In this document: positions 49,421 through 61,327 of the stretch, piece after piece
Layout of the letters: each line of letters opens with the position of its first letter
How positions within the stretch are numbered: the stretch's first letter is position 1
Assembly: GCA_021802555.1 (NCBI GenBank)
Contig: JAJZRU010000003.1
Location: forward strand, 62,001 to 126,000
Source of the DNA: Pseudomonadota bacterium
Lineage (GTDB): Bacteria > Pseudomonadota > Gammaproteobacteria > Burkholderiales > Thiobacillaceae
Direction of reading: 5' to 3'
DNA length: 64,000 nucleotides
Notes under the pieces: generated by a model
The model's database searches: none
Seen by the model: only the letters and a program-made list of their open reading frames with translations
Told to the model about the DNA's origin: nothing
Translations under genes and position numbers: made by a program

Positions 49421-50818
49421 CTACAGCGCTGCCCAATGGGCCGAGAAGACGTGTACCGACAGCAGGTAGCCGAGGATGACGTTCACGACGACGCCGATGG
49501 TGAAGGCGGCGAAGGTCTTCCAGCCCACCGGCTTGAGTTCACGCAGCCGGGTGGTGAACCCTATGCTCAGGAAGCAGAAGATGAACGCCCAAGTGCGCAG
49601 CGACACCAGCGGCATGATGAGGTCGGGCTTCACCGTCTTGTTGAAATCCGCAGTGCTGTAGCCGCTGGTCATCATGGTCATGAGTAGGGAGGCGGCGAAG
49701 AAGCCGATCACGAACTTGGGAAAGCGCCACCAGATCTCGCGCGCGTCGGGGCGCACGCCGGTTTCCTTCTTCTCCCAGACCACGGTGGCGATCAGCGCCC
49801 AGACGATGGACCAGATGCCGATCCAAAGGTCGCGCCCGATCACTTTCATGAGGGTGAAGCCCTTGATGGCCGCGTCTTCGTTGCCGGCCATCTTGCCGTA
49901 GGCGCTGGCGGCGGCGAATCCCGCCGCGTCGGCAAATTCCGACGTGCCTATCCACGCTCCGGCGACGCCGGGCAGAAGGCCGAGCGCCTTGGAGATGAAG
50001 GGCAGCAGCAGGATCATGACCAGCGCCCAGCCGACCACCAGGGTAACCGAGGTGTACAGGTGCTCCTTCTTGGCGTTCACCGAGGCGGCGATCGCCATGG
50101 AAGCGGAGACGCCGCACACCGAGCCGCCGACGCCGATGACCGCGGCCAGGCGCTTGTCCAGCGCGAACAGCCGGGTGGCCGCGAAATAGATCACCGCGCA
50201 GGTCGTGATGGAGATGATCGTCGCCTGCACGATGGCCACCGGCCCGGCCGTCAGCACCAGGGTGATGGGAAAGGTCGCACCCAGCAGGACGATGCCCACC
50301 TTGATGAAGTATTCCACCCGGAAAGCGCTGTCCATCCATGCCGGCAGCGGGATGGTATTGGCCACCACGAGGCTCACCACCAGAGCGACCAGAGGAGGCT
50401 CCAGGTTGAACTTGGCAGCGTTGGCCCAGCCCGCGATGGCAAACATCAAAATCGACATCGCGTAGAGGAAGACAAAGGCGGGCACGAATTTGGACAGCTT
50501 GATGCCCATGATGCGCGTGCTGACCCCAAAGATCACCAGCCAGGCGATGAACTGCATGAGGTAAGTCTGGGCGTTGCCGGCGAAGTGGGCACCCAGTTGG
50601 TCGAGGGACGTCCATTTGAGGCCGCCCGGATTGATGGCAAGCGTCTTCAGCAGGGTGTTGCCCTGGTTGAAGAACAAGATGGCGATGGCCATGAGGCCGA
50701 GGCCCACCCAGATCGCCCACCAGTCCTCCTTGAGATAGAGGGAGCGCCATCCCAGCTTGGCCGGCTTCCCCTCTTCGCTGTTTTCATTCCATGCTTCTTG
50801 TGTTGTTTCGGCAGACAT
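49421..50818 (-). CDS. Putative sulfate exporter family transporter (YeiH-like)
   Basis: A 465-residue polytopic inner-membrane protein with ten or more hydrophobic segments, such as EYFIKVGIVLLGATFPITLV. It also has VIGVGGSVCGVSASMAIAAS and LRTWAFIFCFLSIGFTTRLR. This fits the putative sulfate exporter (YeiH/Cons_hypoth698) family. The name is a family label; the substrate is not shown here. AAAGGAGGAACAG directly before the ATG strongly supports the start at MSAETTQEAW. No LysR-type regulator is adjacent, unlike many yeiH loci. Confidence 0.85.
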   Translation of the reverse strand: MSAETTQEAWNENSEEGKPAKLGWRSLYLKEDWWAIWVGLGLMAIAILFFNQGNTLLKTLAINPGGLKWTSLDQLGAHFAGNAQTYLMQFIAWLVIFGVSTRIMGIKLSKFVPAFVFLYAMSILMFAIAGWANAAKFNLEPPLVALVVSLVVANTIPLPAWMDSAFRVEYFIKVGIVLLGATFPITLVLTAGPVAIVQATIISITTCAVIYFAATRLFALDKRLAAVIGVGGSVCGVSASMAIAASVNAKKEHLYTSVTLVVGWALVMILLLPFISKALGLLPGVAGAWIGTSEFADAAGFAAASAYGKMAGNEDAAIKGFTLMKVIGRDLWIGIWSIVWALIATVVWEKKETGVRPDAREIWWRFPKFVIGFFAASLLMTMMTSGYSTADFNKTVKPDLIMPLVSLRTWAFIFCFLSIGFTTRLRELKPVGWKTFAAFTIGVVVNVILGYLLSVHVFSAHWAAL

Positions 50819-51188
50819 CTGTTCCTCCTTTGGTTTCGTTTGCCGCGCGAGGGGCATCCCGCCTCGCACGGCGCGCAAATGAAAATCAAATGAAGCGAAA
50901 CCGCAGCCTCCGATGCCGGCTGGGCAGTTTGTGCGGGGCCCTTCGCCTGCGGGGCCCTCTTTTTTGCGTTGCCGCTACGGACTTCGGACGTTGCGCCCTA
51001 TAGCAAGACGGAGGTTTTGTAAGCCAGAAAAAATTTATTTGCAACTAAATTAAGTTTGCCGCGCGCGGGCGTGCGGCGGCAGGCGAAATATCGGGCTGCA
51101 AGAAGGGTTTTTTGGTAACAGTGTGCCATGGACGGGCCGCACGACCTCTGGCCGTCCGCCGGAGAACGATACTTAATGCGCGCTTAAA
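50819..51188. other. Intergenic region before the exporter and after the RND pump
   Basis: These 370 bases hold no gene I can support. They include GGGCCC (50936-50941) repeated at 50952-50957 and followed by TCTTTTTT, a weak plus-strand terminator-like hairpin. An AT-rich stretch at 51018-51055 could carry the minus-strand exporter promoter. Confidence 0.5.
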
Positions 51189-54100
51189 TCATGCGCCGCG
51201 TCTCAGGGCGGCGCGGCGCCGCACGAGCGCGTTTTCCGCAAGGGAATAGACCACCGGCACCACCACGAGGGTGAGCAGAGTGGAGCTGAGCATGCCGCCG
51301 ATCACGGCGACGGCGAGAGGGCCGTTGGTCTCCGCGCCCGCGCCTATTCCCAGGGCTGCGGGCAGCATGGCCAGGATGATGGTGAAGGAAGTCATGAGCA
51401 CCGGGCGCATGCGCGTAGGGCAGGCGTCGAGCAGCGCCGTGTCCACGCCCATGCCCTGAGAGCGGCGCAGGTTCGTGAGGTCCACGAGCAGGATGGAATT
51501 CTTGGCGACCAGGCCGATGAGCAGCACCAGGCCGATCATGGAATAGATATTGAGCGTCATGCTCGCGATGCCGAAGACGTTGCCCAGCAGCCAAAGCGCG
51601 AACACGCCGCCCACCACCGCGAGCGGCTGGGCCAGCATGATGATGAGCGGCTGGAAAAAGGAGTTGAACTGGCTGGCGAGCGTCATGTACAGCAGCGCCA
51701 TGGCGAGAAAGAAGGCGAAGGAAATGTATTTCACCGTCTTGTCGAATTCCGCCGCCTGGCCGGTGAACAGCAGGTTGTAGCCCGGCGGCAGCAAGCCCTT
51801 GGCGAGCTCGCGCGTGCGCTGCACGGCCGCGCCCAGCGGCATGGTCGGGGCGACATAGAAGTTGACCGCATAGCGCAAATCCAGGCGCGCGACGACGGCC
51901 GGGCCGGTGGTCTGCACGAAACGGGCGATGCTGCCCAGCGGCACCATGGCGCCGGCCGGTGTGCGCAGATAAATTTTATCGAGATCCGCCGGCTGGGTGA
52001 TCTGGCCGGGCGCGGCCTTGACGCGGATGTCGTAGCGCTGGCCGTCGCCGGGCAGGTTGTTGAAGCGCGCCACGGTCATGCCGCCGCCCAGGAGATCGAC
52101 GGCCTCGCCCACGTCGGCGGCCGAGAGCCCGAGGCTTGCCGCACGGTTGCGATCCACGTGCAGGGCCAGCTCCGGCAGGTTGAACTGAGCGTCGGTATCC
52201 ACCCGACCCATGCCGGGGGCCGCCGCCAGGCGCGCCTGCAGCGTGCGCGCGAGCTTGGCCACTTCGTCGAGATTGGGCCCGCGCACCGCGAACTGCAGCG
52301 GCTCGCCGCGCACCCCGGCGGCGAGGCCGATCTGCGAGGGAAAGGCCTCCACGCCGGGGATGCGGTTGAGTTCCCGCGCCAGCGCTTCCATGCTGGCCTG
52401 CTGGCCGACGCTGCGGCGGCCCTTGGGCTGCATGCGCACGTAGATGGTGCCCTGGTTGACCTGGGCCAGATTGCCCTGGCCCACGGTGGCGAAATAGCTG
52501 CGGATTTCAGGGTGTCGCGCGAGCACCGCCTCGATCAGCTTGAGGCGATTCTGGGTGTAGTCGATGCTGGAGCCTTGCGGTGTCTTGAACGAAACGAGGA
52601 AGGCGCCCTGATCTTCGTTGGGCACGAAGCTCTTGCCCACCTGGGCAAGAAAAAAGCCGGCCGAAAGCACCACGGCGGCGGTGATGGCCACTACCTTCCA
52701 GCGGTGCCCCAACGCCAGCGCGATGAGGCCGCGGTAGCGCCGATCCGTGGCGGCAAAGGCGCCGCCCAGCGCACGCGCGAAGGGGGCGTCGCCGTGTTTG
52801 CGCACCTTGAGATAGCGCGAGCAAAGCATGGGCGTGAGCGTGAGGGACACGAACAGCGAGGCGAGCACGCCCACCACGACCACGATGGCGAAGGACTTGA
52901 AGAACTGGCCGACGATGCCGCCCATGAAGAACACCGGTGCGAAGATGGACACCAGCGACACGCTCGCGGCAATGACCGCGAAGGTCACTTCGCGGCTGCC
53001 TTCCAGGGCCGCCTTGATCCGATTGGGCGCGTAGTGTTCGCGGTGGCGCACGATGTTCTCCAGCACCACGATGGCGTCGTCCACCACCACGCCGATCAGC
53101 AGCAGCAGCGCCAGCAGGGTGATGCTGTTGAAGGTGTAGCCGAAGAAATATATGGCCGCGATGGCGCCCAGCAGCGACACCGGGATGGCGGCGGCGACGA
53201 TCAGCGTGGAGCGCAGGTTGCGCAGGAACAGCCAGACCACGAGCGCGGTGAGCAGGGTGCCTTCCAACAAATGCTCTTGCAGCGTCGCCACCAGCTCCTG
53301 GATGTAGTCGGCATCGTTGGAGGCGATGGTGAGCTTCATGCCGGGCGGCAGCTGCGGCAGGATCTGGGTGGCGAGCTTGTGCTTCACCGCGTCGACGATG
53401 GCGACGGTGTTCGCCCCGGTGACCTTGATGAGCCCCAGGCCGACTCCTGGCTGGCCGTCGAAGCGCGCCAGCTCGCGCTTGTCGGCCAGGCCGTCCTCTA
53501 CCTGGCCGATGTCGGCCAGGCGGATGGGCGCGCCGTCGCGCCAGGCCACGATCATGCGCGAGAGCGCCGCCACGGAGTGGAACTCGAGATCGAGCTTGAG
53601 CTGGAATTCGGTGTCCTTGCCGGTGATGAAGCCGCCCGGGAGCTGCAGGTGCTGGCGCGCAAACGCCTGGAAGATGTCCTGCGGCGTGACGCGGTAGGCG
53701 GCCATGAGGGCAGGGCTCAGATTGACGCGGATCTGGCGTTCGCGCTTGCCGCCGATCTGCACCTCGCCCACGCCGGGGACGGTCTCCAGCGCTTTCTTGA
53801 GCACGTTCTCGGCGTAGAGATTCAGCTGCTGCGTGGTGCGGTCGCCCTGCAGCACCAGCCACATCACCGGCTCGCTGTTGGTCTGCATCTTGGACACCAC
53901 CGGAGGGTCGGCGCCCTTGGGCAGGCGGCGCATGATCTGGCCGATCTTCGACTGCACCTCGTTGAAGGCGACGTCGATGTTCTTGTCCAGGACGAACTGC
54001 ACGTTGATGAGCGACGCGCCCGGCGACGAGAAGGCATAGATGTGTTCGACGCCGGGAATGCTGTTGACCTGGTTCTCGATGACGTTGGTGATGCTGGCAT

Positions 54101-54278
54101 CGACCACCGTGGGATTGGCGCCGGCATCGATGGTGGTGATGGAAATGAAGGGAAACTGGACGTCGGGGTATTGCTCGACGCCGATGCGGCTGTAACTGAT
54201 GAGGCCGAACAGCACCAGCAGGCCGGACAGCATGTAGGCCAGCACATGCCGCCGTATGGAAAGCTCCGGCAGCGTCAT
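51189..54278 (-). CDS. RND efflux pump, HAE-1 type
   Basis: A 1029-residue inner-membrane proton/drug antiporter of the AcrB type. It starts LPELSIRRHVLAYMLSGLLV. The proton-relay aspartates are present in LLIGVVVDDAIVVLENIV, and MGGIVGQFFKSFAIVVVVGV and LLIGLVAKNSILLVDLTN mark the two transmembrane halves. It works with the adaptor encoded just upstream and an outer-membrane channel; no TolC-type gene is in the window. Its start overlaps the adaptor stop by 4 bases. Substrates cannot be told. Confidence 0.93.
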   Translation of the reverse strand: MTLPELSIRRHVLAYMLSGLLVLFGLISYSRIGVEQYPDVQFPFISITTIDAGANPTVVDASITNVIENQVNSIPGVEHIYAFSSPGASLINVQFVLDKNIDVAFNEVQSKIGQIMRRLPKGADPPVVSKMQTNSEPVMWLVLQGDRTTQQLNLYAENVLKKALETVPGVGEVQIGGKRERQIRVNLSPALMAAYRVTPQDIFQAFARQHLQLPGGFITGKDTEFQLKLDLEFHSVAALSRMIVAWRDGAPIRLADIGQVEDGLADKRELARFDGQPGVGLGLIKVTGANTVAIVDAVKHKLATQILPQLPPGMKLTIASNDADYIQELVATLQEHLLEGTLLTALVVWLFLRNLRSTLIVAAAIPVSLLGAIAAIYFFGYTFNSITLLALLLLIGVVVDDAIVVLENIVRHREHYAPNRIKAALEGSREVTFAVIAASVSLVSIFAPVFFMGGIVGQFFKSFAIVVVVGVLASLFVSLTLTPMLCSRYLKVRKHGDAPFARALGGAFAATDRRYRGLIALALGHRWKVVAITAAVVLSAGFFLAQVGKSFVPNEDQGAFLVSFKTPQGSSIDYTQNRLKLIEAVLARHPEIRSYFATVGQGNLAQVNQGTIYVRMQPKGRRSVGQQASMEALARELNRIPGVEAFPSQIGLAAGVRGEPLQFAVRGPNLDEVAKLARTLQARLAAAPGMGRVDTDAQFNLPELALHVDRNRAASLGLSAADVGEAVDLLGGGMTVARFNNLPGDGQRYDIRVKAAPGQITQPADLDKIYLRTPAGAMVPLGSIARFVQTTGPAVVARLDLRYAVNFYVAPTMPLGAAVQRTRELAKGLLPPGYNLLFTGQAAEFDKTVKYISFAFFLAMALLYMTLASQFNSFFQPLIIMLAQPLAVVGGVFALWLLGNVFGIASMTLNIYSMIGLVLLIGLVAKNSILLVDLTNLRRSQGMGVDTALLDACPTRMRPVLMTSFTIILAMLPAALGIGAGAETNGPLAVAVIGGMLSSTLLTLVVVPVVYSLAENALVRRRAALRRGA

Positions 54279-55354
54279 GGGGCCGAGCGCACCACCTGCA
54301 CGCGCGCGCCGTTGCTCAGGAAGCCGGCGCCGTCCTTCACCACCTGCTCACCGGCGGCCAGCCCGGCGAGGATTTCCGCCCAGCCGCCCCGGCGCGTGCC
54401 GGTCTGCACCGTGTGCGCCACGGCGCGGCCGTCTTGCACGGTGTACACGACCTGTCCGGCGGGGCGGATCACCACCGATTCGTCCGGCACCACCAGGGCG
54501 GCGGGCCGGGTGGCCAGCACCACGCGGCCGTCCACGCTCGCGCCGGCCGGCAGGCTGAGGCCGGGGGGCAGCGGCACGATGGCCTCGATAGCGCGGTTGC
54601 CGGTGCCGATCATGGGGCGCAGCTCGCTGACGACGCTGTCGAACGTGCCGCTTCTCACCGGCGTGGTGAGATGCACCGCCATGCCGGGCTTGAGCCGGTC
54701 GGCGAGGTTTTCCGGCAGGGGGAGATGGACTGTCTGCGCCTGTTCGGTGGCGATCACGAACAGCGGCTGCCCGGCGCGCGCGTAATCCCCGGCCGACGCC
54801 AGGCGGCTTTGCACCACGCCGGCCACGGGCGCGCGCACGGTGGTGCGGGAAAGATTGCGCGAGGACTGGTTGAACCCTGCGCCGGCCTGCTCGATCTGCG
54901 CATCGAGGGCTTTCAGCTGGGTGCGCGTGTTGTCCAGCGCGGCGCTGGACAGGAAACCCTGGCGCGCGAGCGACTCGTTGCGCGCCAGAGTCTGGCGCAA
55001 ATTGGCGCGTTCGGCTTCCAGGCGGCGCAGGTTGGCGCGCTGCGCGCTCACGTCGGTGGCGTAGTCGCTGGCCTGGATCAGCGCGAGGGGCTGGTTCGTC
55101 CGCACGCGATCGCCCGTTTCGACGAGGATTTTTTCGATGCGGCCGGAGACTTCGGCCGCCACCTGGGGCGCCACCTGGCTTTCCACCGTGCCGTAGGCAT
55201 CGACCGTGTCCTCGACCGGGCGCTGTACCACCGCAGCGAGCGTGATGGCCACGGGCGGCGCCCCGCGAGGGGCGGATTTATCCGCGCCGCAGCCGGCGAG
55301 AGCGAGCGCGGCGGCGGCCAGGCAAAAGCGGGTCAGCGTTCGGGTCATGCCCAT
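54275..55354 (-). CDS. RND efflux periplasmic adaptor lipoprotein
   Basis: A 359-residue membrane fusion protein. It has a lipoprotein signal (MTRTLTRFCLAAAALALAGC, lipobox LAGC), a barrel-sandwich region (VEDTVDAYGTVESQVAPQVA), a coiled-coil hairpin around residues 105-165 and beta-barrel domains (RTTVRAPVAGVVQSRLA). It links the inner-membrane pump to an outer-membrane channel. Two ATGs two codons apart are possible starts. It is translated just before the pump. Confidence 0.92.
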   Translation of the reverse strand: MGMTRTLTRFCLAAAALALAGCGADKSAPRGAPPVAITLAAVVQRPVEDTVDAYGTVESQVAPQVAAEVSGRIEKILVETGDRVRTNQPLALIQASDYATDVSAQRANLRRLEAERANLRQTLARNESLARQGFLSSAALDNTRTQLKALDAQIEQAGAGFNQSSRNLSRTTVRAPVAGVVQSRLASAGDYARAGQPLFVIATEQAQTVHLPLPENLADRLKPGMAVHLTTPVRSGTFDSVVSELRPMIGTGNRAIEAIVPLPPGLSLPAGASVDGRVVLATRPAALVVPDESVVIRPAGQVVYTVQDGRAVAHTVQTGTRRGGWAEILAGLAAGEQVVKDGAGFLSNGARVQVVRSAP

Positions 55355-55392
55355 AAGACGGCAGCGCGGGAGAAAAGATTGAGCGCCGCGGC

Positions 55393-55665
55393 TCAGCTTT
55401 TGGGCGGCACGTAGCCGGCCGGCGTCTCCGCGCCCTCGCCGAAGAAGAAGCGCTCCATCTGCTCGGCAAGATATTTGCGCGCCTTGGCGTCCACCAGATT
55501 GAGGCGGTTTTCGTTGATCAGCATGGTCTGCTGGCGCGTCCAGGCGCCCCAGGCCTCCTTGGAGACGTTGTCGAAAATGCGCTTGCCCAGCTCGCCGGGA
55601 ACGGGGGGAAAGGCCAGGCCTTCGGCCTCGCGGCCGAGCTTCACGCAATGCACCATGCGGGTCAT
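55393..55665 (-). CDS. yggX: Fe(2+)-trafficking/oxidative damage protein YggX
   Basis: A 90-residue YggX protein: [20 protein letters not shown] with the conserved cysteine, [19 protein letters not shown] and [20 protein letters not shown]. It protects iron-sulfur clusters and limits oxidative damage. It ends 38 bases before the efflux adaptor on the minus strand. Its full length is normal for the family. Confidence 0.95.
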
Positions 55666-55731
55666 CGTTGGCTCCTGAATGTCGAGAAAATATTGCGGAA
55701 TTTAACCTCAAGCCCCGCCGCGGGCAAACTT

Positions 55732-56055
55732 TCAGCCCGCGCCCCTCTCCAGCCGGCGCGCAAATACGCGCATTTCCTTGGCCGCCTGGAGGTCGCCCCT
55801 GGCTTCCGCGCGGGCGATGCCCTCCTCATAGGCCTGCCGCGCGGCGCTCGCGTCGCCGGCCTCGGCGAGCGCCCGTCCGAGCAGCTTCCAGGCGGCGGAG
55901 TAGTCGGCATCGAGTTCGACGGCGCGGCGCAGATGCGCGGCCGCCTCGGCGGGCTGCTTGAGCTTGAGATATTCGCTGCCCAGGCCGAAGCGCAGCAAGG
56001 CCGTGTCGCGTCCGGCGGCGAGCATTTTCTCCAGATTGGCGATGAGCGGGCTCAC
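55732..56055 (-). CDS. Tetratricopeptide repeat protein
   Basis: A protein of about 107 residues. It has TPR-like repeats, GLGSEYLKLKQPAEAAAHLR and DADYSAAWKLLGRALAEAGD, then SAARQAYEEGIARAEARGD. Such proteins mediate protein contacts; no partner is evident. I start at a GTG giving MSPLIANLEKML; the in-frame sequence upstream has no TPR character and overlaps ntrX. It follows the ntrY/ntrX-like pair on the minus strand. Confidence 0.72.
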   Translation of the reverse strand: MSPLIANLEKMLAAGRDTALLRFGLGSEYLKLKQPAEAAAHLRRAVELDADYSAAWKLLGRALAEAGDASAARQAYEEGIARAEARGDLQAAKEMRVFARRLERGAG

Positions 56056-56129: not shown

Positions 56130-57404
56130 TCACAACTCTTCGTCGAGGCGCCGGCCGGGGCGGATGTTCAGCTGCTTGAGCTTGCGGTAGAGGTGCGTGC
56201 GCTCCAGCCCGGCGCGCTCCGCCACCCGCGTCATGCTGCCGCCCTCTTTTTGCATGTGGTATTCGAAGTACTGGCGCTCGAAGGCGTCGCGCGCCTCGCG
56301 CAGCGGCTGATCCAGGGACACCCCGGCGGTGCGCGCCGGCTGGCTTTGCGCCTTGATGGGCCCAAGTACGCGGGCGACTTCCTCCTGGTCCATTTCGGCG
56401 CCCGAGGCGGTGATGGCCAGCGTGCGCACCACGTTGTTGAGCTGCGGCAGGTTGCCCGGCCAGTCGAAGTTGCGCAGCTGGTTCAGCGCCGCCACGGTGA
56501 AGCGGCGCGGAGCGCATTGGTGCGCCTCGACCATCTGGGCGAGCATGAAATTGGCGATGTCGGGGATGTCCTCGCGGTGCTCGCGCAGCGCGGGCAGGCG
56601 CAGGCGCACGGTGGACAGGCGGTAATACACGCGGCTGTCCAGTTCGCCGGCGCTGATGAGGGATTCGGGGCTGCCGCTGCAGGCGGTGACCAAGCGGGCG
56701 TTCTTCGCGGCCAGCTTGTCGATGATGAGATCCAGCCCCCTTTGCTCCAGGCGCGTGAGCTCGGTCAGTTCGGGCAGGAACAGGGTGCCGTTCTGCACCC
56801 GCTCGACGTAATCCAGCGGCGACGAGGCCAGCAGCGCGCGGTTGTCGAGTTCCACCCAGGGCGTGTTGGGCTGGTGGAGGTGGCGCGCGCACAGGTCGAA
56901 GCCGCTGCCCGCCTCGCCCACGAAGAGCACCGGCGTGGTGTGGGCAGCGATGGCGGAGAGGCGTTTTTTGAGGTCCTGGACCAGCGGGCTCTTGCCCAGC
57001 GCGGCCAGGTCCATGACCGGAACCTGGCGCGGCCCGTCGCTTTTCTTGAGGTGCTTCTGCACGGCGGCCAGCAGCTTGGCCAACGCCACGGGCTTCTCCA
57101 GGAAATCCACCGCGCCCAGGCGCGTGGCCTCGATCGCCGTGTCTATGGTGGCGTGGCCGGACATCATCACCACCGGCATGGTGAGCTGGCCGGTGGCGGT
57201 CCACTCCTTGAGCAGGGTGACGCCGTCGGTGTCCGGCATCCAGATGTCCAGCAGCACCAGGTCGGGCCGCGTTTGCTGGCGGAAGGCACGCGCCGCCTGG
57301 GCGTTCTCCGCCAGGTGCACGTCATAGCCTTCCTCGGTGAGGATTTCGGACAGCAGTTCGCGGATGCCGACTTCGTCGTCCACGACCAGGATATGGCCGC
57401 TCAT
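56130..57404 (-). CDS. ntrX: NtrX-like response regulator with degenerate AAA+ domain
   Basis: A 424-residue regulator. The receiver domain (1-120) has acidic DDE near residue 9, phospho-acceptor Asp53 (LLDIWMPDTDG) and Lys in FLEKPV. The centre resembles a sigma-54 activator but lacks an ATP-binding motif: FVGEAGSGFDLC replaces the GETGTGKE Walker A, GTLFLPELTEL replaces the acidic Walker B, and no GAFTGA loop is visible. The C-terminal Fis-type helix-turn-helix (SMTRVAERAGLERTHLYRKL) is intact. It probably acts without sigma-54. It overlaps the ntrY-like gene by 4 bases. Confidence 0.85.
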   Translation of the reverse strand: MSGHILVVDDEVGIRELLSEILTEEGYDVHLAENAQAARAFRQQTRPDLVLLDIWMPDTDGVTLLKEWTATGQLTMPVVMMSGHATIDTAIEATRLGAVDFLEKPVALAKLLAAVQKHLKKSDGPRQVPVMDLAALGKSPLVQDLKKRLSAIAAHTTPVLFVGEAGSGFDLCARHLHQPNTPWVELDNRALLASSPLDYVERVQNGTLFLPELTELTRLEQRGLDLIIDKLAAKNARLVTACSGSPESLISAGELDSRVYYRLSTVRLRLPALREHREDIPDIANFMLAQMVEAHQCAPRRFTVAALNQLRNFDWPGNLPQLNNVVRTLAITASGAEMDQEEVARVLGPIKAQSQPARTAGVSLDQPLREARDAFERQYFEYHMQKEGGSMTRVAERAGLERTHLYRKLKQLNIRPGRRLDEEL

Positions 57405-59527
57405 GAGACCTCTCTTTCATACAGGGGCAGAGTGATGGTTACGCGTGCCCCGCGCGGCTGCAGATTTTCCACGCTGATGTTGCCGTGATGCTCCTCGACG
57501 ATCTTCTGCACGATGGCCAGCCCCAGCCCCGTGCCCTTGGCCTTGCTGGTGGCGTAGGGCTCGAACAGCCGCTGCATGAGATGTTCGGGAAATCCCGGCC
57601 CGTTGTCGGCCACCGCCAGCGTGGCCGCGCTCTCCGCCCGTGCAGTCGTGACTGCAACGCGGGGAGCGGGCTCGCCCTGCAAAGCGTCCTGCGCATTTTG
57701 CAACAGATTGTGCAGAACTTGGCGCAGCAGCGCAGAATCTCCTGCCACCGGGGGCAGATTTTCGGCGAGGGCCACTTCCAGGCCGAGCGCCTTGCGGTCG
57801 TACAGGCCCAGCACTTCGCGCACCAGGGCGTTGAGGTCCATGGCGCCCAGGCGTGCGCTGGGCATGCGCGCGTAGCTGGCAAAGGCGTCCACCATGCCCT
57901 TCATGGCCGCCACCTGGTTGACGATGGTCTGGGTGGAGCGATCGAGAAATTCGGCGTCGCCGTTGGCCACCTTGTCGGCCAGCTTGCGCGCCAGCCGCTC
58001 CGCCGCGAGCTGGATGGGCGTGAGGGGATTCTTGATCTCGTGCGCCAGGCGCCGCGCCACTTCGCTCCAGGCGGCGTCGCGCTCGGCGCGGATGAGTTTG
58101 GTGACGTTGTCGAACACCAGGGTATAGCCTTCATCCATGCCGGCCGGCAGGCGGCTGCCGCGCACCAGCAGTTTGAGCGGGCCGCCGGGTGCGGCGTAAT
58201 CGAGTTGCTCCTGCCAGCTTGTGTCACCGGCGCTGAAATGCTCGTGCGCGCGCGAGCCGAACTGGGCCAGGGCGCTGTCGCCCTCACCCCAGCCGGCGAG
58301 CGGCTTGCCCAGCAGGCTGGCGGCATCGGCGCCGAGGATGCGCGCCGCCGCCTCGTTGACGGTGCGCGTCGCCAGGGCGCCGTCCAGGGCGATGACGCCA
58401 GACGAGAGGTGCCCGAGCACGTTCTCCAGATAGGCCTTGGCCTGCTCGGTCTGCTGCTGGTTGTGCTCCGCCTGCTGCTTGGCCTCGCTCAGCTGGCGGG
58501 TCATGCGGTTGAAGGATTTGATGAGCGCGCCCAGCTCGTCCCGGCTGGAAACCGGCTGCATTTGCGAAAAATCCCCCTGCGCCACCGCGCGCGTGCCGCG
58601 CGCCAGGCTGCGCAGGGGTGCCCCCAGGCGTTCCGACACCAGATAGGCCAGGGTCGTGGTGAGCAGCAGCGCCACCAGGAGCGTGAGGGTCAGGGCCAGT
58701 CCGTAAAGCCGCTTCAGGCCCAGGCGGGACAGCGCCAGCTGCTGGTATTCCTGGTAGGTCGTCTGCACCGCGTCGGCGTCGCGCGCCAGGCCGGGCGGCA
58801 CGGGCTGGATCACTTGCAGCACGCGCGTGCCCCCGGTGAGCGAGGCGGAGTAGACCGGCACCAGAACGCGCATCACCAGATCGCCGTTCTCGCCGACTTC
58901 CACTTGGCGGTAGGGCTGCTGCTGGCGTACCTGCCAAAGCAGGTTGCGGCTGGGGATGTCGGGCAGCAGGCCGCTGTTTTCGCTGCCGGCATAGGCCATG
59001 ACGTTGCCGGACTCGTCGAACAGCGTCGCCTCCGAGACCGCCGCCTGTTCGCGCAGGTTGGACAGCAGGGTGATGCTGGTGCCGGCGCCCTCGCCGGAGA
59101 GCGCCACTGCCATGCGCTCGGCCTTCTTGTTGAGGTCCTGCAGGAGATCATTGAGCGCCGCCTGCCCCAGATTCACGCCCGAGGCCAGGGCGCGGTCCAC
59201 GCGCACGTCGAACCAGGATTCGATGGTGCGGTTGAGAAAGTACACCGAGGTCAGATAGACCACTGCGCCGGGCAGCACCGCCACCACCATGAACCAGATC
59301 AGCAGGCGGTAGGTGAGCTTGCTGCCGAACACCCCGGCGCGCATGCGCCGGCGCAGCAGCCAGAGCTGCCAGATTACGGCGATGAGCAGGAGGACGGCGC
59401 CGGCAGAGCCGACGAGGAGCAGGGAAGAAAATGTCTCGCTCAGCTGCGGGGTGTCGTGGCTGGCGGTGAAGAGAAAATACAGCAGGGCGGCCGCCGCGAG
59501 GGCGGCCGCCGTCAGCATATATTTCAT
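57401..59527 (-). CDS. ntrY: NtrY-like sensor histidine kinase
   Basis: A 708-residue membrane kinase. It has several N-terminal membrane segments (residues 1-110 and about 280-305), a HAMP region near 305-360, a PAS-like domain, and a kinase core with H-box LAHEIKNPLTPIQLAAERLA. The ATPase core is NLLQNAQDAL, ADNGPGFPEHLMQRL and KAKGTGLGLAIVQKIVEEHH. It should phosphorylate the NtrX-like protein. I chose the ATG at MKYMLTAAAL, overlapping the stop of the upstream gene. NtrY/NtrX systems are linked to nitrogen, redox or envelope control. Confidence 0.9.
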   Translation of the reverse strand: MKYMLTAAALAAAALLYFLFTASHDTPQLSETFSSLLLVGSAGAVLLLIAVIWQLWLLRRRMRAGVFGSKLTYRLLIWFMVVAVLPGAVVYLTSVYFLNRTIESWFDVRVDRALASGVNLGQAALNDLLQDLNKKAERMAVALSGEGAGTSITLLSNLREQAAVSEATLFDESGNVMAYAGSENSGLLPDIPSRNLLWQVRQQQPYRQVEVGENGDLVMRVLVPVYSASLTGGTRVLQVIQPVPPGLARDADAVQTTYQEYQQLALSRLGLKRLYGLALTLTLLVALLLTTTLAYLVSERLGAPLRSLARGTRAVAQGDFSQMQPVSSRDELGALIKSFNRMTRQLSEAKQQAEHNQQQTEQAKAYLENVLGHLSSGVIALDGALATRTVNEAAARILGADAASLLGKPLAGWGEGDSALAQFGSRAHEHFSAGDTSWQEQLDYAAPGGPLKLLVRGSRLPAGMDEGYTLVFDNVTKLIRAERDAAWSEVARRLAHEIKNPLTPIQLAAERLARKLADKVANGDAEFLDRSTQTIVNQVAAMKGMVDAFASYARMPSARLGAMDLNALVREVLGLYDRKALGLEVALAENLPPVAGDSALLRQVLHNLLQNAQDALQGEPAPRVAVTTARAESAATLAVADNGPGFPEHLMQRLFEPYATSKAKGTGLGLAIVQKIVEEHHGNISVENLQPRGARVTITLPLYEREVS

Positions 59528-60078
59528 GGGGCCGCCTCGACCTTCCACACATACCAGGGGCTTTCCAGCGACCAATTGCCGGACGCCAGGGCATTGACCT
59601 GCATGGGCCTGGAGAGCTGCGAGGTGTCCAGCTTCATGCGCAGTGCGGCGCGGTAGGTCGTGCCCGGCTTGAGCTGCCCGCTATCCAGCACCGACCAGGC
59701 GCGCAGCCGGCCGAGGCCCGCGAGCGCCTCGCGCAGGGTATCGTAGGCGTGCGTCTGATAGCCGCTTTCCAGCAGATAGCGGCGCAGCAGGAAGTTGTAG
59801 CTCAAGCGGCTTTGCCTGTCCTCGCGCGCCAACTCCGCGTCGAACCACCAGCGCCGCGGCTCGACCAGGCGGAAGTCGGTGCGGAACACCAGGGTGACGC
59901 CTTTCTGCAGGGCTTCGTCCAGCGTCGGATTGAGTTGCACGGCAAGGCGCGCGTCGACTTCGTAGCGCTCTTTCTTGAGCGTGAGCTCCGCGTTTTCCAC
60001 GCGTATGCCGGCGGCCGCGGCGGGTGGCGGCGCCAAGGCCAATCCTGCGGCCAGCCCCAGGACCAGCAGCAGGAGCAG
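59524..60078 (-). CDS. DUF4390 secreted protein
   Basis: A protein of about 184 residues with a signal-peptide-like start (LLLLLVLGLAAGLALA then PPPAAAAG). The DUF4390 body includes VENAELTLKKERYEVDARLA and FDAELAREDRQSRLSYNFLL. Such genes lie between rsmB and ntrY in many Betaproteobacteria. The start is unclear: no ATG, GTG or TTG gives a full signal peptide, and a CTG five bases after the rsmB stop is the best candidate. A role in envelope sensing by the NtrY-like kinase is speculation. Confidence 0.75.
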   Translation of the reverse strand: MLLLLVLGLAAGLALAPPPAAAAGIRVENAELTLKKERYEVDARLAVQLNPTLDEALQKGVTLVFRTDFRLVEPRRWWFDAELAREDRQSRLSYNFLLRRYLLESGYQTHAYDTLREALAGLGRLRAWSVLDSGQLKPGTTYRAALRMKLDTSQLSRPMQVNALASGNWSLESPWYVWKVEAAP

Positions 60079-60082
60079 TCGT

Positions 60083-61327
60083 TCAAGAGGTTTTTTCCAG
60101 CAGGGCGTAGAAGAAGCCGTCGTTGCGCCGCGCAGGCGGCAACCTGCCGTCGCCCAGTTCGGCCGGCAGGGAAAGCCGGCGGGCGTCAGCATGAGTCTTG
60201 CGAAACGCTTGGATTTGGTTCTGATTTTCTTCCGGGAACACGGAACAGGTCGCGTACAGCAATTTACCACCGGGGGCCAGCGTCTGCCAGAGCGCAGCCA
60301 GGATTTTCGCCTGCTGGCGCGTGAAGGTCGCCAGGTCCGCGGGGCGCCGCTGCCACTTGATGTCCGGGTGGCGGCGCACCACGCCGGAGGCGGAACAGGG
60401 CACGTCCGCCAGGATGCGGTCGAACGGCCGGCCGTCCCACCAGGCCGCGGGATCGGCTGCGTCCGCGGCCAGCAGGCGGGCGTCCAGATGCAAGCGTGCG
60501 AGATTCTCGCGCACGCGTTCGAGCCTTGCGGCGTCGGCATCGAGCGCCAGCAGATCGACGTCGGCGCATTCCAGGATGTGGCCGGTCTTGCCGCCCGGCG
60601 CGGCGCAGGCATCCAGCACGCGTTGGCCGTCGGCGAGATCGAGCGCGAGCGCCGCCCATTGCGCGCCGGCATCCTGCACCGACACGAGGCCGTCGGCAAA
60701 GCCCGGCAGGCGGCTTACCGGCACAGGCTGATCCAGGGTCAGCGCCCACGGGCCGCTCGGGCCGGCGGCGAGGCCGGCCTGCGCCAGCAACGCGAGGCAG
60801 CCGTCCGGGCTGATCCTGCGCCGGTTCACCCGCAGCGTCAGGGGCGGATGTTCCAGGCTGACCGCCAGCAGGGCCTGCCAGTCTTCGGGATAGGCGGCGC
60901 GCAGCTTGTCGACCCACCAGGCGGGAAAATTCCAGCGCCCCTCTTCGCTTGCCCGCGCGCGTTCCAGGGTCGATGCCGAGTCGCGCAGGAAATTGCGCAG
61001 CACGCCGTTGATCAGGCCGCGCGCCCATTTCGGTCCGGCGGCCTCGACCGTTTCGTTGACCACGGCATAAGCGGGAGCGTCGGTGTGCGCCAGCCGATAC
61101 AGCGCCCCCAACAACAGGGCATGCAGGCGCCGCTCCTTGAGCGGCTGGCGCAGCAGCTGGGCCAGCACGCCTTCCAGTTCGCCGCGAAAACGCAGCGCCC
61201 CGTAGGCGGTATCCATGACGGCGCCGCGGCCGTCCGAGAGCGCCGCGGCAGCGAGCGCCTGGGGCAGGGTGCGCCCGGCCAGCACCGCGGCCAGCACCCC
61301 GGCCCAGGCGGCAGCTTCAGCCGCCAC
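60083..61327 (-). CDS. rsmB: 16S rRNA m5C967 methyltransferase RsmB
   Basis: A 414-residue enzyme. Residues 1-140 are a NusB-like RNA-binding domain ([27 protein letters not shown]). The methyltransferase domain has [16 protein letters not shown] and [18 protein letters not shown], and the catalytic-cysteine motif [14 protein letters not shown]. It methylates C967 of 16S rRNA. The GTG start lies within the last codons of htpX. Confidence 0.93.

Follow-up and report, generated by a model that had tools for sequence, protein, structure and literature searches.

The window, a stretch of 64,000 nucleotides of a Thiobacillaceae genome, carries on its minus strand an ntrX-like gene directly downstream of the genes for an NtrY-type sensor kinase, PlrP and RsmB, in the order rsmB-plrP-ntrY-ntrX (Table 1). 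The ATG start of ntrX overlaps the ntrY stop codon by 4 bp, and the ntrY ATG at 59527 overlaps the plrP stop codon by 4 bp; a longer ntrY frame with a TTG start at 59575 is present in the list of open reading frames. Further upstream, beyond plrP, are rsmB and genes that encode an M48 peptidase, a formyltransferase and a deformylase. The rsmB-plrP-ntrY-ntrX order is described for beta- and gammaproteobacteria in the excerpted text of PMC13001219. Downstream of ntrX, the same strand encodes a small TPR-repeat protein (55735-56034), followed by an RND efflux pump gene (AcrB/D/F family, PF00873) that is preceded by a HlyD-type membrane fusion gene (51189-55711). A Cons_hypoth698 family protein (PF03601) is encoded at 49421-50878, also on the minus strand.

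Table 1. Genes of the ntrX locus and features of the NtrX-like protein (window positions)
Feature	Position	Strand	Evidence
ntrX-like response regulator, 424 aa (receiver, degenerate AAA+, lid, Fis-type HTH)	56130..57404	-	ORF and Pfam
Receiver domain, residues 5-116	57057..57392	-	Pfam PF00072 Response_reg, 1.1e-29
Predicted phospho-acceptor Asp53	57246..57248	-	Alignment of NtrX rows
Degenerate AAA+ core, residues 136-273	56586..56999	-	PF14532, 3.9e-39; AlphaFold pLDDT about 90
Walker A remnant GEAGSGFD, Lys to Phe	56895..56918	-	Alignment
Shortened L1 region, GAFTGA loop deleted, 17 vs 36 residues	56790..56840	-	Alignment
Walker B remnant GTLFLPEL, Asp to Pro, Glu kept	56766..56789	-	Alignment
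AAA+ lid, residues 274-356	56337..56585	-	PF25601 AAA_lid_14, 2e-14
Sensor II remnant WPGNLPQL, Arg to Pro	56439..56462	-	Alignment
Fis-type HTH, residues 373-412; recognition helix ERTHLYRKLK at 401-410	56169..56288	-	PF02954 HTH_8, 2.3e-6
ntrY-like sensor kinase	57401..59527	-	HAMP, HisKA, HATPase_c and weak PAS matches; HEIKNPL motif
plrP, DUF4390 protein, start codon not settled	59524..60090	-	PF14334, 3.8e-50
rsmB, rRNA methyltransferase	60083..61327	-	PF01189, 1.5e-55

The original prediction, made from the sequence alone, was that of an NtrX-like regulator with intact receiver and Fis-type DNA-binding domains, and the Pfam matches bear this out; in the receiver, the phospho-acceptor D53 is accompanied by D9, D10, S82 and K104. 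PF14532 (Sigma54_activ_2) matches over the entire model (positions 1-138 of 138) with 134.5 bits against a cut-off of 25, and the AAA+ region, comprising core and lid, spans residues 136-356 according to both Pfam and a confidently predicted fold, so that the protein is not an AAA-less, PlrR-like NtrX. Its best NCBIfam match is the NtrX equivalog NF051870, at 257.6 bits; because the cut-off of 600 is missed, the name NtrX is meant more broadly here, by locus and relatives.

For comparison, the protein was aligned with the nine canonical bEBPs of its own genome (L001-L009), all of which have the GK of Walker A, GAFTGA or GAYTGS, the DE of Walker B and the sensor II arginine. At Walker A, the window protein reads GEAGSGFD, without the lysine, against sequences such as GESGTGKE (lysine in 9/9); at Walker B, it has PE for the DE of sequences such as GTLFLDEI (9/9); and 17 residues stand where the nine controls have 36, which shows that the GAFTGA loop has been deleted. 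In sensor II, proline replaces the arginine, and FREDLYYRL has become LDSRVYYRL, with one arginine kept and the other replaced. The predicted losses of Walker A and of the GAFTGA loop are thereby confirmed, and the predicted loss of acidic Walker B holds for the aspartate, but not for the second acidic residue, E212, which is retained. An rpoN gene was found in the genome, so the motif loss is no by-product of sigma-54 loss, which we ruled out as a cause. The variant loop GAYTGS belongs to L009 (G000:C47:60173-60673, below the low end of the window at C47:62001), an otherwise canonical-looking bEBP without GAFTGA.

A homologue scan with one genome per species yielded 587 confirmed relatives, of which the best 80 were taken; among these, every group that is named is betaproteobacterial. 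Together with 29 rows from 200 genomes drawn evenly from the window's order, four rows retrieved by position (L161, L162, L163 and L165) and the window protein, they gave 114 full-length rows, 110 of them distinct; some are one contig met in two collections. Since most of these rows had been picked by similarity to the query, 20 lower-ranked matches of the order draw were added. Neither the Walker A lysine nor GAFTGA occurs in any of the 114 rows, which include the best 80 of 587 and the window protein, and the Walker B aspartate is kept in five and missing in 109 of them. The 20 lower-ranked rows agree, with the lysine in none, the aspartate kept in one and missing in 19, and a loop region of 15-19 residues. 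Altogether, the P-loop lysine is absent in 134/134 full-length rows (130 distinct; the best 80 of 587 and the window protein included). PF14532 was matched by 56/56 homologues scanned. The loss of catalytic motifs is common to the relatives examined and the window gene is ordinary for its clade. Sequencing error or chance as the cause was ruled out, the losses being shared by the relatives.

Taking a match at <=1e-80 as the full-length form of NtrX, we found it as the best match in 141 genomes out of the 200 drawn, two of these matches being cut by contig ends; 56 genomes gave weaker matches and three none. In these three (G314, G358 (f213) and G380 (f190)), there was no match to the window protein at E 1e-20 and none to AAA-less NtrX at 1e-30; in the remaining three f213 genomes, matches to the AAA-less query are no better than 1e-36 to 1e-45. 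In two genomes of the order there is a second NtrX-like gene, about 1,320-1,330 nt long and with 39-41% identity to the query, namely at L164 (G296:C29:90300-96000), where the 5.7 kb fetched contain no ntrY, plrP or rsmB match, and at G337:C98:31250-32569.

Outside the order, we examined the 29 top-scoring hits that the rest of the class yielded (434-462 aa; best hits rather than a random sample, and labelled gamma here by inference), 27 of which adjoin an NtrY-like match, with none beside L110 and L123. GAFTGA is missing in all 29 of these best hits; the Walker A lysine is kept in 22, and lysine and Walker B aspartate together in 11. L166-L170, five more proteins of the class with about 420 aa each, include two with the lysine and none with GAFTGA. 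The alignment with NtrX and NtrC-type proteins that had been proposed as a check on the original prediction separates the window protein from the nine bEBPs, all of which have the missing motifs, but the absence of GAFTGA also extends to NtrX-like proteins in which the P-loop persists.

In nine families of the order draw, the AAA+ region is absent altogether: NtrX proteins of 203-272 aa (30 examined) consist of receiver and HTH with a short linker between them. At all six widely fetched loci of this kind, rsmB, plrP and ntrY were matched, rsmB of L160 being partial at the locus end, and the receivers of these six AAA-less NtrX share 70-75% identity with the window protein's own. Asp53 is invariant in all three groups, namely in 114/114 full-length beta rows (including the best 80 of 587), 30/30 AAA-less rows and 34/34 other class rows.

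The recognition helix is similarly constant. It begins with ERTHLYR in 113/114 full-length beta rows (including the best 80 of 587), 20/20 further beta rows, 30/30 AAA-less rows, 28/29 gamma rows and 3/5 further class rows, and in none of the seven own-genome bEBP helices compared (of the nine controls). NtrX therefore appears, from its sequence, to bind the same DNA whether its AAA+ domain is live-looking, dead or absent. One observation counts against this: the HTH of the AAA-less L156 scores 19.5 bits, below the Pfam cut-off of 22. We regard the persistence of the recognition helix across all three AAA+ states as the strongest argument that the output does not run via ATPase and sigma-54. 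Two published NtrX motifs of the alpha type showed no enrichment in the window: GCAN9TGC was matched 36 times (40 expected) and CAAN4TTG, which represents one of the spacings covered by CAAN3-5TTG, 10 times (14 expected).

The history of the deletion was followed on a tree of the C-terminal half of NtrY, which does not itself contain the trait, with 96 rows (53 full-length beta including the window, 30 AAA-less and 13 others). The AAA-less label changes three times on this tree, and the starred branches force at least two changes; after removal of five rows with long branches or odd make-up (L036, L081, L085, L163 and L165), there were still three, and a single AAA-less clade was rejected by the AU test (p about 1e-6). 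Each pairing of the three AAA-less groups was also rejected (p 0.0063, 5e-5 and 0.002), with the qualifications that the groups were named after the tree was seen, that the trees are quick searches and that ntrY may have been transferred between lineages. By this count, the AAA+ region was lost at least twice, the NtrY tree itself implying three deletions. The group f206, one of the three, falls in a starred set of ten rows together with the window's own family.

On balance, we lean towards a stepwise dismantling of the AAA+ domain in betaproteobacterial NtrX, in which GAFTGA, then the ATPase residues and then, two or more times, the whole domain would have been lost, with the receiver, the recognition helix and the locus unchanged. 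GAFTGA is placed first because its absence extends to Brucella NtrX and to those other class rows in which the lysine persists. NtrX of this lineage would then have been sigma-54-free for long, and the degenerate AAA+ domain of the window protein would represent an intermediate before excision, as its NtrY groups with that of an AAA-less family.

Nevertheless, the remnant does not drift freely. At a receiver identity of 0.75-0.80, the identity of the AAA+ core was 0.42 in beta pairs (3,025 pairs) versus 0.57 in gamma pairs (161) and that of the lid 0.50 versus 0.66, whereas the HTH was alike (0.71 versus 0.70), the pairs in this comparison not being independent. Between the window gene and L015, the closest pair among those listed (whole-gene dS 0.28), dN/dS reaches 0.10 in the core and 0.09 in the lid, against 0.02 in the receiver and 0.00 in the HTH. 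The greater divergence of the core in beta rows combined with this dN/dS indicates that the core is relaxed but not free. We relied on the close pair rather than on pooled dN/dS (238/465 pairs: core 0.57, lid 0.36, receiver 0.14; HTH 0.16 over 212 pairs), because many of the pooled pairs look near saturation.

The AlphaFold model (56-row alignment) has a mean pLDDT of 86, with the core near 90. In a Foldseek search, Brucella NtrX came first, with a TM score of 0.46 and an rmsd of about 12 over the whole chain, the domains being placed differently in the two proteins; single AAA+ domains such as those of NtrC1 and PspF match at an rmsd of about 3-4. Being confidently folded in the model and under purifying selection, the AAA+ remnant may do more than serve as a spacer.

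We consider it likely that the window protein is a betaproteobacterial-type NtrX of a PlrP-NtrY-NtrX (PlrP-PlrS-PlrR-type) system, that is, a DNA-binding regulator that is controlled by phosphorylation, works independently of sigma-54 and retains a folded but non-catalytic AAA+ remnant. NtrY, as assumed from the gene order, would phosphorylate Asp53; the phosphorylated receiver would favour a dimer in which the Fis-type HTH is positioned over its target sites; and this dimer would activate or repress ordinary promoters of the sigma-70 class. The AAA+ domain, without ATP hydrolysis or contact to sigma-54, would stay as a folded spacer or dimerisation scaffold, and it has been dispensable over evolution, because sister lineages deleted it. 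In the excerpts of the respective papers, phosphorylated NtrX of S. meliloti binds DNA and needs D53 for it (PMC9223101), and NtrX of R. sphaeroides is mainly an activator, of dcw-cluster operons, and possibly represses others (PMC7240162). Against a sigma-54-free reading, an extract of PMC12194929 lists NtrX/NtrY of Acidithiobacillia among sigma-54-dependent systems. Also counting against the model, neither of the two alpha-type motifs linked the window protein to a binding site or target.

The high-confidence fold and the constraint on the core could also point to a non-hydrolysing module for ligand or protein interaction that controls DNA binding, for example a nucleotide or c-di-GMP sensor like those of VpsR and FleQ, whose structures are among the fold matches. 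This appears unlikely, since no new conserved pocket was seen (the invariant core residues of the 56-row alignment are G166, Q221 and P271), for a given receiver identity the core has diverged further in beta than in the other class rows, and it was deleted two or more times. An indirect effect on sigma-54 transcription, by joining a canonical bEBP in mixed oligomers or by competing for bEBP sites, is conceivable in a genome that encodes nine such bEBPs and rpoN, and for a protein that keeps one arginine of FREDLYYRL. Nevertheless, with the other of these arginines and that of sensor II replaced, a recognition helix unlike the seven own-genome helices compared, and AAA-less orthologues that keep locus and HTH although unable to form mixed AAA+ rings, we deem it very improbable. 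That the gene is a decaying pseudogene, as the lost catalytic motifs might suggest, is scarcely credible given the open frame, the conservation of receiver and HTH in the comparison with L015 and the same state in the relatives examined.

We thus return to the phosphorylation-controlled regulator of ordinary promoters, the most likely reading of a protein that is predicted to lack ATPase activity and sigma-54 contact and has an intact receiver and HTH beside an NtrY-type kinase with a HEIKNPL phospho-acceptor motif. Both the expectation that it would not activate sigma-54 and the proposed phosphorylation-dependent role are consistent with these features; what found no support is the view of the protein as an individual oddity.

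Several known systems resemble the locus. Bordetella PlrSR and Herbaspirillum NtrYX share with it, according to the excerpted PMC13001219, the rsmB-plrP-ntrY-ntrX order, the 4-bp overlap of plrP and the kinase gene, a HEIKN-type kinase and a regulator with receiver and C-terminal DNA-binding domain. PlrR is described there as receiver plus DNA-binding domain, whereas the window protein has kept a folded, apparently dead AAA+ domain. The GAFTGA-less NtrC of Rhodobacter capsulatus and of Caulobacter, as well as VpsR, are likewise bEBP-derived proteins without the sigma-54 loop, and act at sigma-70 promoters, according to the extracts of PMC10274813, in which Caulobacter NtrX is also said to be without GAFTGA. 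Those NtrC proteins are reported in the same extracts to need ATP binding, whereas the P-loop lysine is gone from beta NtrX. Brucella NtrX (PDB 5m7n/o/p) belongs to the same family, has the same domain order and is without GAFTGA in our alignment, but keeps the GK of Walker A and the DE of Walker B and, by the entry titles, was crystallised with ATP and ADP.

The same degenerate core is found in the AAA+ domain of a relative, PDB 3co5, which is presumably from Neisseria gonorrhoeae and reads GEAGSPFE at the Walker A and GVLYVGD at the Walker B position; unlike the window protein, it was solved alone, as an isolated domain of 143 residues.

The absence of the AAA+ domain from beta NtrX has already been stated in print (excerpt of PMC13001219, there citing Bonato 2016), and the Pfam model fits the degenerate core in all homologues scanned; the window gene thus belongs to a known type, within which it is unremarkable. 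Descriptions of repeated AAA+ excision in NtrX, or of the retention of a folded dead AAA+ domain by most genomes of an order, were not found in the passages of open-licence literature covered by our searches, a weak negative as most subscription journals lie outside it. We regard stepwise decay with repeated excision as a modest addition to what is known. If repeated excision is true, orthologues that keep the dead domain can be compared with those that have lost it, a natural experiment on the remaining contribution of non-catalytic AAA+ domains to response regulators. The names of the models, a sigma-54 interaction domain for PF14532 and a nitrogen assimilation regulator for the best-matching family, would lead predictions of the regulon astray.
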